From positions 1 through 46,313 of the forward strand of contig JAAUZY010000069.1 of assembly GCA_014804355.1 (NCBI GenBank): a DNA stretch of 46,313 nt. The letters are read 5' to 3'. The notes beneath the pieces are model-generated. The model was not told the DNA's origin, did no database searches, and worked only from the letters and a program-made list of their open reading frames with translations. The stretch's first letter is position 1, and every line of letters starts with the position of its first letter. Of the stretch, positions 9,977-17,235 are shown in pieces. A program made the position numbers and the translations under genes. Origin of the DNA: Lachnospiraceae bacterium. Lineage in GTDB: Bacteria > Bacillota > Clostridia > Lachnospirales > Lachnospiraceae.

Positions 9977-10360
9977 ATGAATTACGACCTAAAACCCAAA
10001 GAATATGAAATCATGAAATTCATATGGACGAATGCCCCCGATGGTGTAGCCTTTGGCGAGATCCACGACTTCGTGAACAGCCTAGGCAAGAAAGAGTCCC
10101 GTCAGCGGATCAACTGTTTTATACAGTCACTTCTAAGCAAGGGAATACTTGCCGCCACCGGAGAAGACCGTCACAAAGTATATACTCCCACGATCTCCAA
10201 ACAGGAATATGATCAGATACTCGCAAATCAACTACTAAATCAGTTATTTGACGGTTCCCTCAAGACATTCGTATCGGCGCTGTCCGGCGGCGACAGTATT
10301 TCCGATGAAAACGCGAAAGAGCTACGTAAACTACTTCGAGAAAGGAATAAGAAGAAATGA
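9977..10360 (+). CDS. BlaI/MecI/CopY-family repressor
   Basis: 127 residues, the normal length of the family. Residues 5-75 are the winged helix (LKPKEYEIMKFIWTNAPDGV, then RINCFIQSLLSKGIL), and residues 80-125 the helical dimerisation part (QILANQLLNQLFDGSLKTFV). AAGGAG lies before the ATG. The stop overlaps the next start by 4 bases (ATGA), so repressor and sensor protease are translated together. In the family the repressor is removed, directly or indirectly, after activation of the M56 partner. The likely targets are its own promoter and the divergent secreted-protein gene. Confidence 0.9.
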   Translation: MNYDLKPKEYEIMKFIWTNAPDGVAFGEIHDFVNSLGKKESRQRINCFIQSLLSKGILAATGEDRHKVYTPTISKQEYDQILANQLLNQLFDGSLKTFVSALSGGDSISDENAKELRKLLRERNKKK

Positions 10361-11697
10361 ACCTCCTTTTCGTCATGTCTATAAGCGGCAGTATTGTTTT
10401 CTTTTTATATCTGTGCACCAAACCTTTCTCCAACCGCTATTGTACCGCCCACTGGCAGTATAACTTTCTAAAGATATGTCTTCTTTTTTATCTTATTCCT
10501 TATCAATGTCTTCAGAATAAAGGTCTCATACTCTGTAACATCCTGTTCGGAAACGGAGAGGCAGTCAATCCTTTGCGCGATGGTATCCATAAATTTGAAG
10601 ATAACTATACCATTTATATAACACCCGATGGGAAAATGCATTATAAATACTGGCTTCCGCTGTTAATCGTTTTGATCGCGTGGCTGTGCATCGCTGCCTT
10701 TGTGCTATACCGTCAAATAGGAAAATATCATTCCTGCCGAAATAAGTTGATGCTTCTTTCAGAAATCTCCGATGCAGAAACTGGTGATACTGCAATACCA
10801 CATGATGTTATGCCGTCCGTCCAAAAGAAACTGAAGAAGATCATATTTTGCCCACTCATCAGCAGTCCGCTTACCATCGGTTTATTTCATCCCGTCATGA
10901 TACTTCCCAAGGAGTATAATAGCGAGGACCTGCCGATGTATCTGTCACACGAGTTATGCCATATCAGGAACCATGATGCATTGTGGAAATTTATCTCTTT
11001 TATCACTATATTGATCCACTGGTATAACCCGTTTTCTTATCTTCTCTTCTTAGAAATATGTGGTGTGTGTGAAAAGAATTGTGACGAAATGGTAATTGCG
11101 CCTTTCAATGAAACGCAGAAAATGCATTATGCGAACTTGATCATTGAGTCCGCCCGAAATCATAGTGGCTCACCCCTTCTCTTTACCGGCACTTTTTCTA
11201 CCAATTACAAATTGACCAAAGAAAGGATATTATCTATGGAAAGAAAAAAATGTAAATCACTCTGTCGAAAAGTCATTACCGCCTTGTTAATAGGTGTCGT
11301 TGCTTTGTCAATGCCTATATCCGTACTGGCATACCAGCCGGTTTTCGTGTATAGAGATCTGCAAGATTACGATCCGAATGGAGATGTCATGTATATTGTA
11401 TTTAACGGTGAGCAATCTCCGCTTGCTGCACCAGATACATCATATTTAGATTTTTCCATGTCAGATGAAATAATCGTGGATAAATACGGTAACCAGTACA
11501 CAGTCAATACGGAATGCACACAGACTGCACGGTCATGCACTCATGAATACATAACCGGACAGCGAAATTATCATGTGAAAAACGGCAGCGGAGGATGTAC
11601 AACATATATTTATGAAGGAACATATTGTAAAAAATGCGGCTACTGTTTACAAGAAACTCTGATCGGTCAAACCAGCCTCATAAAATGTCCACACTAA
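10357..11697 (+). CDS. M56-family (BlaR1/MecR1-like) membrane metalloprotease with Cys-rich sensor tail
   Basis: 446 residues. Hydrophobic helices lie at about 2-22, 36-50, 98-122 and 210-232, and a further helix at about 305-330 (ALLIGVVALSMPISVLAY). The zinc site is H198-E199-L-C-H202 in YLSHELCHIRNHD, with E239 or D243 in the following CEKNCDE as third ligand. In place of the penicillin-binding domain of BlaR1, the outside tail (330-446) is short. It ends in a cluster of eight cysteines with CKKCGYC, which could bind zinc or form disulfides. The stimulus is therefore unlikely to be a beta-lactam acylating a serine. Paired with the BlaI-type gene by a 4-base overlap. Confidence 0.87.
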   Translation: MNLLFVMSISGSIVFFLYLCTKPFSNRYCTAHWQYNFLKICLLFYLIPYQCLQNKGLILCNILFGNGEAVNPLRDGIHKFEDNYTIYITPDGKMHYKYWLPLLIVLIAWLCIAAFVLYRQIGKYHSCRNKLMLLSEISDAETGDTAIPHDVMPSVQKKLKKIIFCPLISSPLTIGLFHPVMILPKEYNSEDLPMYLSHELCHIRNHDALWKFISFITILIHWYNPFSYLLFLEICGVCEKNCDEMVIAPFNETQKMHYANLIIESARNHSGSPLLFTGTFSTNYKLTKERILSMERKKCKSLCRKVITALLIGVVALSMPISVLAYQPVFVYRDLQDYDPNGDVMYIVFNGEQSPLAAPDTSYLDFSMSDEIIVDKYGNQYTVNTECTQTARSCTHEYITGQRNYHVKNGSGGCTTYIYEGTYCKKCGYCLQETLIGQTSLIKCPH

Positions 11698-12702: not shown

Positions 12703-13179
12703 ATGCACACATTTTCAATCACTTTACGACAAGTACCCTACAGTCATCCCGATTTTCTTCAACTATGTAACGAACTGGATCAGTTCCTCAATCTGGCGAT
12801 CGGCGGCGAGGATAAACGGGAGAAATATAAGAAATACAATCACTTAGACACTATGGACTATGTGATCATTGCTTACGATGGACAGCACGCCGCAGGCTGT
12901 GCGGCGCTGCGGAAGTATTCGGATACCGAAATTGAAGTCAAGCGGGTTTTCGTGCAGGAACCCTATCGCGGACAGAATATCGGCGGCCGCCTGCTGGCAC
13001 ACTTAATTGAACACGCACAGGAATCGGGCTATAAACGCATGCTGTTAGAGACCGGTGCATTTCTGTCTGCCTCTGTTCGCCTGTATCAACGTTACGGCTT
13101 CGAACAGATCAGTAACTACGGCGACTACAAGGATATGCCGGAATCACTTTGTATGGGACGGGATATCAGCACCCCATAA
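12703..13179 (+). CDS. GNAT-family N-acetyltransferase
   Basis: 158 residues with AAGGAGG before the ATG. The acetyl-CoA pyrophosphate loop is visible as VFVQEPYRGQNIGGRLL (R/Q-x-x-G-x-G/A), followed by the helix and LETGAFLSASVRLYQRYGF of motif B. The closest style is the small YjdJ/PA4794-like group acting on small molecules or protein termini; the substrate cannot be read. Divergent from the LysR gene and probably controlled by it. Its last 36 bases overlap the end of the convergent exosortase gene. Confidence 0.88.
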   Translation: MHTFSITLRQVPYSHPDFLQLCNELDQFLNLAIGGEDKREKYKKYNHLDTMDYVIIAYDGQHAAGCAALRKYSDTEIEVKRVFVQEPYRGQNIGGRLLAHLIEHAQESGYKRMLLETGAFLSASVRLYQRYGFEQISNYGDYKDMPESLCMGRDISTP

Positions 13180-13980
13180 CCGTCTTGTAATCCACCCTCC
13201 GACCGCTATTATCGCACACACACTCCCACACACCCCGCCAATCACCGCCGCGTATGCCCCGAATCCCGCCATATCATGATGATACACCCGTTTCACAAAA
13301 GGCAGCGCCAGCACGACCAGAAGATACCAAAATGCCGGCGCAGTCAGCTGCCTATACTGTATCGTGCGTGCAGATACTTCTCCGGAGAATGCTTCGACGG
13401 CTTTCCCACCCTCCCGCTGAATCCGCTCGAAACTGCGTTGGTGAATCGACAACGCCAGCAGATAAATCACGCACAATGATATAAAATACGTTACGGTTCC
13501 GATCAGCGTATGCAGTCTGTCGGGTGTCAGCCACCCGTCCATGAGCTGTTTTCTTTCCAAAACAACGGGCAGGTAGATGGACGCAACGATCCGTATGCCG
13601 TTGACCAAAATCGTGGATACATAAGCAAACACCAGACTAAATCCAAGCCATGCCCACTGTTTTTCCGGGCCTCGTGCGGATTCATTTCTTCCGAATGAAA
13701 AAACCAGCATCAGAAACGTGATCAGCATAAAGCGGCACCCCGCGCAGGAAGGCGCGATCACAAACTGCCAGAGATGATTAACATATCCCTGATGAGGAAG
13801 ATATTCAAAAGGAATACCGCCAAGGATACTGACCCACCATGCGGTGGGTGTCAGTATCCAGGTAAGAGCGTCACTGTCGCTTGTCCTGCAGAAATAACAC
13901 ATCACGAGAGCAATAACGGCTGATGCTATGAGAATTATCCGATTCTGATATATTCTGTCGTACATTACATATTTTCCCAT
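13144..13980 (-). CDS. Exosortase-family transpeptidase, XrtK-like
   Basis: 278 residues from the ATG at 13980 (AGGAA upstream; an ATG two codons before abuts that site). Several membrane helices. In the numbering of the longer frame the family triad is Cys81 in APSCAGCRFM, Arg132 in VNGIRIV and His159 in RLHTLIGTVTYF, as in exosortases and archaeosortases. These enzymes process C-terminal signals of a motif, a membrane helix and basic residues. The gene directly upstream on the same strand (82 bases) encodes a VIT/VWA protein with just such a tail (GSEPGD, helix, KRRLQIRR). This looks like a dedicated enzyme-substrate pair. I assign the exosortase K subfamily from memory of its SEP-type partner, so the subfamily is tentative. 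Confidence 0.78.
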   Translation of the reverse strand: MGKYVMYDRIYQNRIILIASAVIALVMCYFCRTSDSDALTWILTPTAWWVSILGGIPFEYLPHQGYVNHLWQFVIAPSCAGCRFMLITFLMLVFSFGRNESARGPEKQWAWLGFSLVFAYVSTILVNGIRIVASIYLPVVLERKQLMDGWLTPDRLHTLIGTVTYFISLCVIYLLALSIHQRSFERIQREGGKAVEAFSGEVSARTIQYRQLTAPAFWYLLVVLALPFVKRVYHHDMAGFGAYAAVIGGVCGSVCAIIAVGGWITRRLWGADIPSHTK

Positions 13981-14062
13981 TTTCATTTCCTATCTGCATA
14001 CACATTTTCTTACGTATAAACCTGTTTCGAGTACGTGTCATCACACTAATACCCATGCCTTC

Positions 14063-16069
14063 TCACAGCCTGCGAATTTGTAACCGCCTTTTCACCAGCG
14101 CCGACAATAGCAAAAGCACCATCAACATTCCGATAAACATGATATCCCCCGGTTCCGATCCGATCCGATAACCGACTGCCAGATTGGACACCTCCAACGG
14201 CAAAGGAAGCGGCTGGTCCACATCCGTGCTGTCACCCTCGGGATTCCGAACGGTATCCAACACCGCGATAAAGGATGTATAGGGCGTAATCATATGGTGG
14301 TCTAATCCGATCTGTGTCACTTCTGCCCGTACCTTCGGATCGTCTTCGCTTCTGCCGTAATCAGTCAGCCGCTCCACTCTCTTGCGCGCCCACAGATATC
14401 CTACCGCATCGTTCTGACCGTTTTTTGCCTCCGACACATCTATGCTCTGCGAGTATTGTCCCTCACCGGTCATGCCGCTGATCCGAATCGTTCCAGTCGC
14501 TTCGCCTCTCCATTTGCCCAGCAGAACAATGGGCTTCTGCGCATACAGTGTCGGCAGCACGGTGGGTTCAAAATCATAAGTATCCATTCCTTCAAAAACT
14601 ACCCTGATATCCGTCAGTACCGGAGACTGTATGTATGTGCGGAACTTTTCCGCCACCTCGGATGCCTCTTTTTCATCAGTCACGATAAAAGGCTCTCCCT
14701 GTCCGATCGACGCGATTCCTTCGATCAGATAGCGGTTTACGGCGGAGCCGATACCGAAGGAAAAGAAATCCGCTTTATCCATATTGTCATTAATCATATC
14801 AAATACTTCCGACTCTCCGTATATGTATCCGTCACTTATAATAACGATGTTGCGGGACGTGTCCGCTGTCGCCGGAATCTGCAGCGCATCTTCGAGTGCG
14901 GAAGCCAGCTCGGTGCCGCCCGCTCCCTTCTGCGCGTTAATCAGACGGAGCGCCTTATTAACATTTTCCTCCGTGGCCGGAACCGAACTGTCCGACATCT
15001 GCAAAGAATCCCCGGAAAATAAGATCAGGTTAAATGTATCGGTCTCCCGCAGGCCGGATACCAGATTATTAATCAGCTTCTTGGCCGTATTCAGTGGAAA
15101 TCCCGACATGGAACCGGATACATCCAGTACGAAAATATATTCTCTGGGCGGAATCTCCTCCACTTCATAGCGTTCCGGCGGCTGTATCATTAACATGAAA
15201 TAATTCTCATTTTCTCCCTGACTGGTGATAAGTCCCGTATTGATCTCTTCCCCTGTCAGACTATAGTCCAATATAAAATCTCGATTGCCGGCATAATCCG
15301 ACGAATCCGCCAGACTGACATGGGCTGTCGTACTCTCTTCCCAGTCGATCTTGACGTCATGCGAACTGCTCGAAAGCGACGAGATCGGCACACCGGAGGC
15401 AACCGTCACATTAATATGGTATTGATCGGCGGGCGCAGTCCCCTCCGGCAGATACGCTGTGCTTGTCCATTCCTCACGATTTCCCGTATCGTCCAGCACG
15501 GGACCCACATACCGCGGACCCACCACTGTCGGATAGACGAACTGATATGTTCCGTCTGTGGGCGTAATCAACTCCGTATAGTGCAGCTCAATCCGCACCT
15601 CATCACCGGGCATAATATTGGCAACGTCCATCGTGAACACATTTGCTCTCTTCTCCGACAGCATGGAGGCGCTTTTACCCTCACTCTTAGCAGTTTCAAA
15701 TTCCTGCTTCGCCTCTTCCTTTTCCTTAATGACCGCCTTCACAATCTGGTTCCCGATCTGCATCTGCATACCATGTATCGTGACCTTAGTCGATGCCGGG
15801 AAAATGTAGCTGGCATTAATCGGCTTCGTCCCTTGGTTGGCATATGTCTGCACTACATAAGTGTCCGCGATGATTCCCTCTATCGTTGTGTTCACATCCG
15901 TACTTTTTAACGGCAGGCAGTCCACTCCCGTCTCTTCACTTTCCACATAGAAATAAGGTGAAAGTGTTCTGTCCTCATTGGTTTCCTCTTCCGCATGTAC
16001 TGTGGGCGCATAACCCATAAGCAATAACAGTACAGCCAAAAAGCTTAATAATTTTCTGTGTTTTCTCAT
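14063..16069 (-). CDS. VIT and VWA domain surface protein with exosortase-type C-terminal signal
   Basis: 668 residues from the ATG at 16069, with GGAAGG 9 bases upstream. Residues 1-26 are a signal peptide (LLSFLAVLLLLMGYAP, cut after VHA). A VIT domain covers about 45-170 (TIEGIIADTYVVQTYANQG, FPASTKVTIHGMQM, ASMLSEKRANVFTMDVANI). A VWA domain follows from about 308 with MIDAS residues D316-x-S318-x-S320 in FVLDVSGSMSG, and GGTELASAL and IVIISDG later. The tail is GSEPGD (637-642), a 17-residue hydrophobic helix and KRRLQIRR. VIT/VWA proteins are inter-alpha-trypsin-inhibitor-like modules of adhesion or complex assembly, with metal-dependent ligand binding. An array of 11-bp repeats sits 85 bases before the gene. 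Confidence 0.88.
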   Translation of the reverse strand: MRKHRKLLSFLAVLLLLMGYAPTVHAEEETNEDRTLSPYFYVESEETGVDCLPLKSTDVNTTIEGIIADTYVVQTYANQGTKPINASYIFPASTKVTIHGMQMQIGNQIVKAVIKEKEEAKQEFETAKSEGKSASMLSEKRANVFTMDVANIMPGDEVRIELHYTELITPTDGTYQFVYPTVVGPRYVGPVLDDTGNREEWTSTAYLPEGTAPADQYHINVTVASGVPISSLSSSSHDVKIDWEESTTAHVSLADSSDYAGNRDFILDYSLTGEEINTGLITSQGENENYFMLMIQPPERYEVEEIPPREYIFVLDVSGSMSGFPLNTAKKLINNLVSGLRETDTFNLILFSGDSLQMSDSSVPATEENVNKALRLINAQKGAGGTELASALEDALQIPATADTSRNIVIISDGYIYGESEVFDMINDNMDKADFFSFGIGSAVNRYLIEGIASIGQGEPFIVTDEKEASEVAEKFRTYIQSPVLTDIRVVFEGMDTYDFEPTVLPTLYAQKPIVLLGKWRGEATGTIRISGMTGEGQYSQSIDVSEAKNGQNDAVGYLWARKRVERLTDYGRSEDDPKVRAEVTQIGLDHHMITPYTSFIAVLDTVRNPEGDSTDVDQPLPLPLEVSNLAVGYRIGSEPGDIMFIGMLMVLLLLSALVKRRLQIRRL

Positions 16070-16154
16070 ACTGCACATCCTTCCTTCTCGCGTCTTTTGA
16101 TCATCCTGAATCTGACGGTACGTGTAATCTCTACGTCTATGCTACCGTGTGAAA

Positions 16155-16242
16155 GCATCAATCCTGCATCAGATTTGCAAAATAAAAGCATAATCTTTGC
16201 ATCAAAACTCCATCAAATTTGCATCAAAATTGCATCATCATC
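16155..16242. repeat. Eight direct repeats of 11 bp upstream of the VIT/VWA gene
   Basis: Starts at 16155, 16166, 16177, 16188, 16199, 16210, 16221 and 16232, exactly 11 bp apart with no gaps. Consensus GCATCAAAATT on the plus strand (TGATGC hexamer on the coding strand of the downstream gene). Five units have a perfect GCATCA; the units at 16177 (GCAAAA), 16188 (GCATAA) and 16210 (CCATCA) deviate. The spacing is one helical turn, like direct-repeat sites of OmpR/PhoB-type regulators. No clear -35 box follows it, and a TAGCAT-like -10 lies next to it, which fits an activator-dependent promoter. Confidence 0.8.
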
Positions 16243-16272
16243 TAAGAATGTGCGCTTTTTTTACGGAACTGC

Positions 16273-17235
16273 CTAGGTCAGTTCCGCCAGATATCTGTCA
16301 TACTGTTCTCCGTCCTCTTCTACCCGCTCACCTTTCTGGAATCCCAGCTTCCGGCACAATGCCGCCGACTTCTCGTTTCCCTCCATTACAAGTGCCTGCA
16401 CCTGTGTAAAACCCAATTCTATCTTTGCATAATCGAGAATCGCCCTGCACACCTCATAGGCGTATCCCTGCCCCTGCCAGAGCACCCCGATCACGAATCC
16501 CAGCTCCGGCAGGTCAAATCCCTCACGCCAGCTTATGCCTGCCCGGCCGATCACCGTACCCTCTTTCGTAAGCACCGTCCACATGCCATACCCATAGAAT
16601 CCGTACATTTTCTCCCTATACTCTGCGACATAGGCCAGTTCTTCTTCCCGATCCTCATACAAATCTTCCATATATCTGGTAATCCCAGGTTCCGCATATA
16701 TATTGTAGAAACTGTCCACATCCGCCTCCGTAGTCTCGCGGATTATGCACCGCCTCGTCCTGAGAATCTCCCACGGCAGTCCCGCAAGCCGCCTATACGC
16801 CAGATCAACCGTCTCATAATCAACCTCTTCAATCTGCTCAATCACATACAGTGCTCCCATAAAATCCGCGGTCTTATTATTCTCATGTCGATATGGCAGC
16901 ACATATCTTCCCCGCTGCCTCAGAAGGCGATAGGTCTCCTCCGAATCTGTGATGTACAAATTCTCTTCTAAACTGTCTCCAAAACCTTCTTCTACACCGC
17001 CATATACTTCATCCATCCCTTCCGCTTCACAGCATTTTGCCCCATTACATTCTGTACTGTTACATGCCGCAGTGTTCTCTTCTGCTTCAATATCCACAGC
17101 GGCACTCTGTCCCTGCCCAATAGCGATCTCCACCCCATGTTCCCGCAAATCATCCGGCAGTATACTTTCCCCACACAGCACTTTTTGCTGTAAAATATCT
17201 TCCTCGATCAGTAAAATCACTTTTTTCAGCATCAT
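16273..17235 (-). CDS. GNAT acetyltransferase with N-terminal regulatory-like domain
   Basis: 320 residues; ATG at 17235 with GGAG 9 bases upstream. Residues about 155-320 are a RimJ/RimL-like GNAT domain (RRCIIRETTEADVDSFYNIY, WQGQGYAYEVCRAIL, GNEKSAALCRKLGF). Residues 1-150 form a separate domain (VILLIEEDILQQKVLCGESI, then ITDSEETYRLLRQRGRYVLP and ALYVIEQIEEVDYETVDLAY) that recurs in Lachnospiraceae GNAT proteins as I recall, with a response-regulator- or HAD-like alternation of strands and helices. An acidic insert at about 47-92 carries five cysteines and looks like a local expansion. Substrate unknown. Confidence 0.82.
   Translation of the reverse strand: MMLKKVILLIEEDILQQKVLCGESILPDDLREHGVEIAIGQGQSAAVDIEAEENTAACNSTECNGAKCCEAEGMDEVYGGVEEGFGDSLEENLYITDSEETYRLLRQRGRYVLPYRHENNKTADFMGALYVIEQIEEVDYETVDLAYRRLAGLPWEILRTRRCIIRETTEADVDSFYNIYAEPGITRYMEDLYEDREEELAYVAEYREKMYGFYGYGMWTVLTKEGTVIGRAGISWREGFDLPELGFVIGVLWQGQGYAYEVCRAILDYAKIELGFTQVQALVMEGNEKSAALCRKLGFQKGERVEEDGEQYDRYLAELT

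Follow-up and report, generated by a model that had tools for sequence, protein, structure and literature searches.

What function does a long, strictly phased repeat array have in front of a gene that is linked to an exosortase? We address this question for a 46,313-nucleotide stretch of Lachnospiraceae DNA (contig C69 of genome G000; hereafter the window), in which an initial annotation placed eight phased 11-bp repeats at 16155-16242 and described them as possible OmpR/PhoB-type sites that form a multi-site activator platform or a counting switch at a promoter lacking a clear -35 box.

A phased array with a -10-like hexamer

The array comprises eight TGATGC-type half-sites in exact 11-bp steps on the minus strand, from 16237 down to 16150, with cores in the order TGATGC, TGATGC, TGATGG, TGATGC, TTATGC, TTTTGC, TGATGC and TGATGC. 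Read on the minus strand from 16237 to 16139, the sequence is TGATGCAATTT TGATGCAAATT TGATGGAGTTT TGATGCAAAGA TTATGCTTTTA TTTTGCAAATC TGATGCAGGAT TGATGCTTTCA cacgg TAGCAT. This is the array first annotated, in a slightly shifted frame, the best frame being minus strand 16150-16237. The eight 11-bp steps stand as described and identical cores do not, since five of the eight are perfect TGATGC; the phasing is therefore perfect and the units imperfect. Seven of the eight units in the real array are good, whereas no run exceeded three good units when the 46-kb window was re-created 200 times by an order-1 Markov model. When exact plus-strand hexamers are counted at periods of 8-14 bp, the array is the sole place in the window with at least four copies in eight phases.

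A -10-like hexamer, TAGCAT, lies at 16144-16139 on the minus strand, exactly 10 nt past the last core, and was missed in the initial annotation. The same offset recurs widely: in 101 of 107 arrays, a set gathered without regard to the -10, TANNNT comes after the last core at a distance of exactly 10 nt. A consensus promoter scan of 15900-16400 found nothing for the VIT/VWA gene, its single promoter-like match being on the plus strand, in keeping with the earlier description of a promoter without a -35 box. From the end of the array to the ATG at 16078 there are 71 bp.

The gene behind the array (14063-16078, minus strand) encodes a 671-residue protein with Pfam VIT and VWA domains and a C-terminus composed of SEP, a hydrophobic stretch and a basic tail. 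The next gene on the same strand (13144-13986) encodes an exosortase K homologue (XrtK; TIGR04287, 124.2 bits against a curated cut-off of 55). Among the 44 VIT/VWA orthologues listed, 43 carry SEP or AEP followed by a hydrophobic stretch, the other (L183) having CEP, and some tails are only weakly basic. With the short C-terminal motif, hydrophobic stretch, basic tail and adjacent XrtK gene all present, the VIT/VWA protein is a plausible exosortase K substrate, as had been proposed. Elsewhere in the window, 9977-11697 holds a pair of genes, one for a BlaI-type repressor and the other for an M56 (BlaR1-like) peptidase, both scoring far under curated beta-lactam cut-offs.

Recurrence before envelope genes

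The motif TGATGC-N5-TGATGC, with at most one mismatch, is found at 33 places in the genome versus 5 for the reversed pattern. Contigs C20, C114 and C59 each carry one array with four good units and C99 carries two; the hexamer at N10 is TATAAT in four of these five and TAATCT on C59. Upstream of the C59 array, one unit with three of six matches is followed by one perfect unit, so that this array can be read as six units. The C20 array precedes a gene for a PdaA-like deacetylase, the two on C99 precede genes for lipoprotein-like proteins that have no Pfam match, and the C59 array precedes that of a CwlD-like amidase; behind the C114 array lies a gene for a sulfatase-family membrane protein, of which only the start is present before the contig end. 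A query for this last family matched in 3 of 15 genomes. Judged from sequence, the window array is one member of a putative regulon in which the element TGATGN-N10-TANNNT stands before other envelope genes of the genome. It is not a one-off and instead represents the long form of a regulon-wide element of 2, 4, 6 or 8 units. In some relatives, the array-bearing amidase is fused to a polysaccharide deacetylase domain (L142:3182-4708).

A sequence-only model (R1), built from six arrays of this genome including that of the window, was run on 40 relatives and on the genome itself. Its full-length match at 16136-16196, which spans units 4 to 1 (16150-16193, the half nearer the promoter, over and upstream of the -35 position), is not independent, as this stretch is among the model inputs; a weaker match lies on C5 (E 2.6e-4). 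At E ≤ 0.1, R1 finds matches in 22 of 24 same-genus genomes (G016 and G020 are without), although G005 is matched only at 9.6e-4 by a weak 27-bp hit, and in 8 of 16 genomes of other genera, where the best value, 0.006, is close to noise level. We retrieved and read sixty loci from the R1 match list (array-fetched loci). The search of related genomes that the initial annotation called for was also run at the VIT/VWA gene itself: a clear array (score of at least 8.2, against a maximum of 2.8 in reversed sequence) lies upstream in 46 of 52 loci from named genomes, mostly Lachnospiraceae. These 46 loci are non-independent, as six encode a protein 96-98% identical to that of the window, and some are records of genomes already in our numbered genome set. 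Three further loci (L180, L187 and L189) have degenerate arrays, and in three from distant groups (L200, L201 and L204) no array was found.

Even unit numbers and 22-bp pairing

Unit number was compared across 119 distinct arrays of at least three units, anchored on the -10. Under strict counting, 50 arrays have four units, 36 have six and 17 have eight, while the 16 odd ones have three (9), five (4) or seven (3). The number is thus even in 103 of 119 arrays, and in 109 of 119 under a lenient count that accepts, by one rule for all arrays, every contiguous unit with at least four of six matches. Arrays of six or eight units show a 22-bp alternation, both in how well each unit matches (core plus AA) and in the spacer letters, and their best-scoring pair, by mean matches at each position, is the one farthest from the promoter; in the window array, which forms four 22-bp pairs, this outer pair belongs to the far half (units 8 to 5, 16194-16237). 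Even counts together with a 22-bp alternation are the pattern expected of tandem dimers of the OmpR/PhoB family. Unit number shifts mostly in pairs with the -10 phase kept, and the variable, unphased repeats that would have pointed to simple slippage were not seen.

Unit number also differs by target class, in an assignment to gene families that skipped arrays of fewer than four units and so left out nine three-unit arrays. VIT/VWA arrays have eight, six or four units, with five cases of five or seven; those of the amidase/deacetylase class have four or six, with two cases of eight and one of five; and arrays of other genes have four units in 27 of 28 cases. Expressed in pairs, the tendencies are one for a lipoprotein cluster, two for most lipoproteins, two or three for amidases and deacetylases, and two to four for VIT/VWA. 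The single-pair elements stand at the same -10 offset before tandem genes in G320, where four of five inspected have a lipoprotein-like frame close behind. They lie on the minus strand of L253 (G320:C7) near 2292, 6765, 12291, 14496 and 18691, each with TATAAT at the 10-nt offset and, where a frame was found, a lipoprotein-like gene.

A candidate response regulator

The OmpR-type DNA-binding domain has 38 matches in the genome, none of them on contig C69, which agrees with the initial remark that no such regulator is adjacent. A regulator encoded within the window was likewise rejected, the neighbouring regulatory genes being BlaI/M56 and LysR genes. The BlaI and LysR families bind inverted-repeat sites.

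The leading candidate is the OmpR-type response regulator RR_C59 (G000:C59:21853-22524), which heads an operon of regulator, kinase and a third gene (P296) that leads into the array-bearing amidase. When 37 OmpR-type regulators of the genome were used as queries on the 60 array-fetched loci, counting alignments of more than 150 residues, RR_C59 had orthologues in 10 loci at 73-92% identity and was the sole one of the 37 with a relative of at least 70% there; any other regulator type of this genome appeared at one locus, at 46%. The recognition region [ST]RT[LV][DE][LI]HVQR[LM]R is kept in all 15 aligned regulators, those of G241 and G327 included, which fits a conserved site.

The converse search, by regulator position, fetched 38 loci, of which 32 are RR_C59-type and six hold only relatives of 57-60% identity. 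Of the 32, 19 have a flagged array downstream of P296, including five with only three good units (L222, L224, L225, L236 and L245) and one (L232) in which the array lies about 3.6 kb away. Arrays are degenerate in L223, L246 and L247, with L223 inside the background range; contig ends truncate L228 and L233; and in L250 the array sits at the neighbouring VIT/VWA gene. No array was found in the fetched stretch of the other seven (L219, L226, L227, L230, L231, L244 and L248), two of which (from G022 and G018) have an amidase with an upstream model match farther along the contig. In the regulator search, G018:C8:364189-364845 shows one in-frame TGA; the frame used in L231 (4681-5340) is open.

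Regulator and VIT/VWA genes are also found close together. The VIT/VWA-XrtK operon adjoins the regulator-amidase locus in G006 and is separated from it by about 7 kb in G319, and in G241, a member of another family, about 1.2 kb separates VIT/VWA from the response regulator and kinase genes. Upstream of the G241 VIT/VWA gene is a divergent four-unit array, GGATGC-N5-TGATAC-N5-GGATAC-N5-GGATGG-N10-TAAATT, with 18 of 24 core matches, a value that random windows also reach, at a rate of 103 in 2000 with real arrays among them. In G334-G338, a regulator paralogue of 60% identity has TGATGC-N5-TGATAC-N10-TAAATT before its own gene.

P296 (L013:3880-4770 and orthologues) is a conserved membrane-anchored protein encoded between the kinase and the amidase. 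The copy in this genome matches no Pfam (E ≤ 0.1) or NCBIfam (E ≤ 0.01) family, and its AlphaFold model (mean pLDDT 74.5) has no PDB match at E ≤ 0.001.

Co-occurrence of regulator and arrays

Co-occurrence was assessed in 46 genomes chosen independently of VIT/VWA, namely 26 of the genus and 20 others from hits and misses of the RR_C59 search, with thresholds of E ≤ 1e-3 for arrays and E ≤ 1e-78 for the regulator, the latter admitting the 57-60% relatives in G238 and G258. Arrays are present in 24 of 28 genomes with the regulator versus 3 of 18 without it (Fisher p=5.8e-6), and within the genus in 20 of 20 versus 3 of 6 (p=0.008), both p values being optimistic because the genomes are related. 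Arrays occur without a detected regulator in G008 and G024 (67-68% complete), G339 and G005 (the weak 27-bp match). The regulator occurs without an array at E ≤ 1e-3 in G223, G241, G258 and G238 of the 46 genomes, and in G327 and G330 among 20 VIT/VWA genomes. These 20 are the regulator-bearing ones of 21 genomes from the 52 VIT/VWA loci that were searched for the regulator, and 18 of the 20 have arrays; the twenty-first is G339.

VIT/VWA is present in 11 of the 46 genomes, all with the regulator, and in none of the 18 that lack it, and a PdaA-like orthologue is present in 9 of 26 genomes, again all with the regulator. Array-poor genomes of the genus have 10-19 OmpR-type regulators versus 38 here, so the absence of RR_C59 from them says little alone. 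In G241, which has six regulators, only three of the 37 OmpR-type regulators have a match of at least 60%, and the two other than RR_C59 are also found at 83-95% in G005, G016, G020 and G166, genomes without an RR_C59 orthologue, in a comparison that covered 30 of the 55 regulators of these four.

Proposed mechanism and alternatives

We consider it quite probable that the array is an operator-promoter for a response regulator of the OmpR/PhoB family, most likely RR_C59, that drives envelope genes. As in operators of this family, the repeats run in one direction at a spacing of about 11 bp and keep a core of 6-7 bp, the half-sites pair into 22-bp dimer sites, and an OmpR-type regulator gene is linked, here through RR_C59 in relatives and with none inside the window. 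The comparison among genomes supports both the OmpR/PhoB-type direct repeats at one helical turn and the multi-site platform at the promoter that were suggested initially, and yields no direct evidence of a counting switch. From the DNA itself we read the array and its constant phase to the -10, its repeated occurrence ahead of envelope genes, the rule of even unit numbers, the alternation at 22 bp, and the synteny and co-occurrence of RR_C59; what we infer is that the regulator binds, that it activates instead of repressing, that it loads cooperatively, and what signal it answers.

In the proposed mechanism, one dimer would sit head to tail on each 22-bp pair of half-sites. The promoter-proximal pair would cover the -35 region and recruit RNA polymerase to the -10 without a -35 box, while extra upstream pairs would add dimers, the farthest probably serving as a high-affinity anchor. 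RR_C59, its kinase and P296 may together sense the envelope, and RR_C59 would switch on the VIT/VWA-exosortase K operon together with genes for lipoproteins and for peptidoglycan amidases and deacetylases. Cooperative loading at the array is a guess and should not be assumed, given that KdpE binds two half-sites without cooperativity, according to excerpted text of PMC3264566.

An operator of the same family might instead be bound by another regulator, although we find this unlikely; examples are the L091 type (G000:C99:1867) and the C71 regulator, which is 53% identical to RR_C59. L091 lies on contig C99, which carries two arrays about 15-20 kb off, has a 55% reciprocal-best match in G241, and has a 57% relative at L187:1143-1841, about 3 kb from VIT/VWA in a genome with a degenerate array; nevertheless, L091 relatives are at 0 of the 60 array-fetched loci versus 10 for RR_C59. 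Comparably small is the chance that the array is a repressor site, with the regulator holding the promoter shut until a signal arrives. VicR sites that overlap promoters mediate repression as well as activation in the passages available from PMC4168254, but the distance from the nearest half-site to the -10 is fixed, as polymerase contact would give, and no -35 box was found for the VIT/VWA gene, neither of which is proof.

We give distinctly less credence to a SARP-type activator or to a protein other than a response regulator that polymerises on direct repeats. Excerpts of PMC10936776 describe SARP activators such as AfsR, whose 11-bp direct repeats near the -10 can replace the -35 contact, much like the geometry seen here; SARPs are, however, actinobacterial, and their 3' repeat ends 8 bp from the -10, compared with 10 nt from core to -10 in the array. 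BldC, a MerR-like protein, also docks head to tail on direct repeats whose number varies, but these are 9-bp repeats in the sections seen of PMC5859096, and the 11-bp period of the array led us to reject a BldC-type filament site. Counts that change pairwise would be unexpected for a monomer filament, and the synteny and co-occurrence favour an OmpR-type regulator. Scarcely credible at all is a functionless slippage minisatellite. Unit number does vary among orthologues (four, six or eight), yet spacers differ between units while cores and phase stay constant, and slippage is contradicted as well by the constant distance to the -10, by unit counts that are mostly even, and by the recurrence of the element before non-homologous genes.

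The number of dimer boxes may also be a heritable dose code, a reading that we rate as somewhat less likely than not: classes would keep their own number at a fixed -10 offset, giving different thresholds or steepness per target under one regulator, with whole 22-bp boxes gained or lost at the far end. Promoters that naturally carry from one to four dimer boxes without a change of offset would offer a convenient test of how tandem response-regulator sites set promoter strength and steepness. More broadly, the sequences are enough to sketch a two-component regulon for gut Lachnospiraceae, most of them uncultured: its operator can be recognised, a regulator and kinase can be put forward, and its envelope targets extend to an exosortase system; we found no literature on such a regulon among open-licence papers.

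Comparison with known direct-repeat operators

OmpR sites at ompF and ompC provide a precedent for several tandem dimer sites before one promoter, but these are Gram-negative porin genes and their spacing is less regular than that of the array. The site of PhoB is a 22-bp pair of 11-bp direct repeats arranged head to tail, on which dimers load hierarchically and cooperatively (excerpts of PMC2648988 and PMC4415409), and the array resembles this Pho box in its architecture. It differs in its core (TGATGC versus CTGTCAT) and in its targets, which are envelope genes rather than phosphate uptake genes, and RR_C59 scores 199.9 bits against the PhoB cut-off of 296.2, so that membership in the Pho system is rejected.

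WalR/VicR (YycF) is closer in its targets, as its sites are hexamer-N5-hexamer direct repeats before cell-wall genes in the portion consulted of PMC4168254. The WalR core given there, TGTWAH, misfits TGATGC, in which the third base is A and not T, so that TGTWAH-N5-TGTWAH does not describe the array, which has up to eight units. Membership in the WalR system is likewise rejected by protein scores, with RR_C59 at 183 bits versus 340 for YycF and its kinase at 186 versus 725 for WalK.
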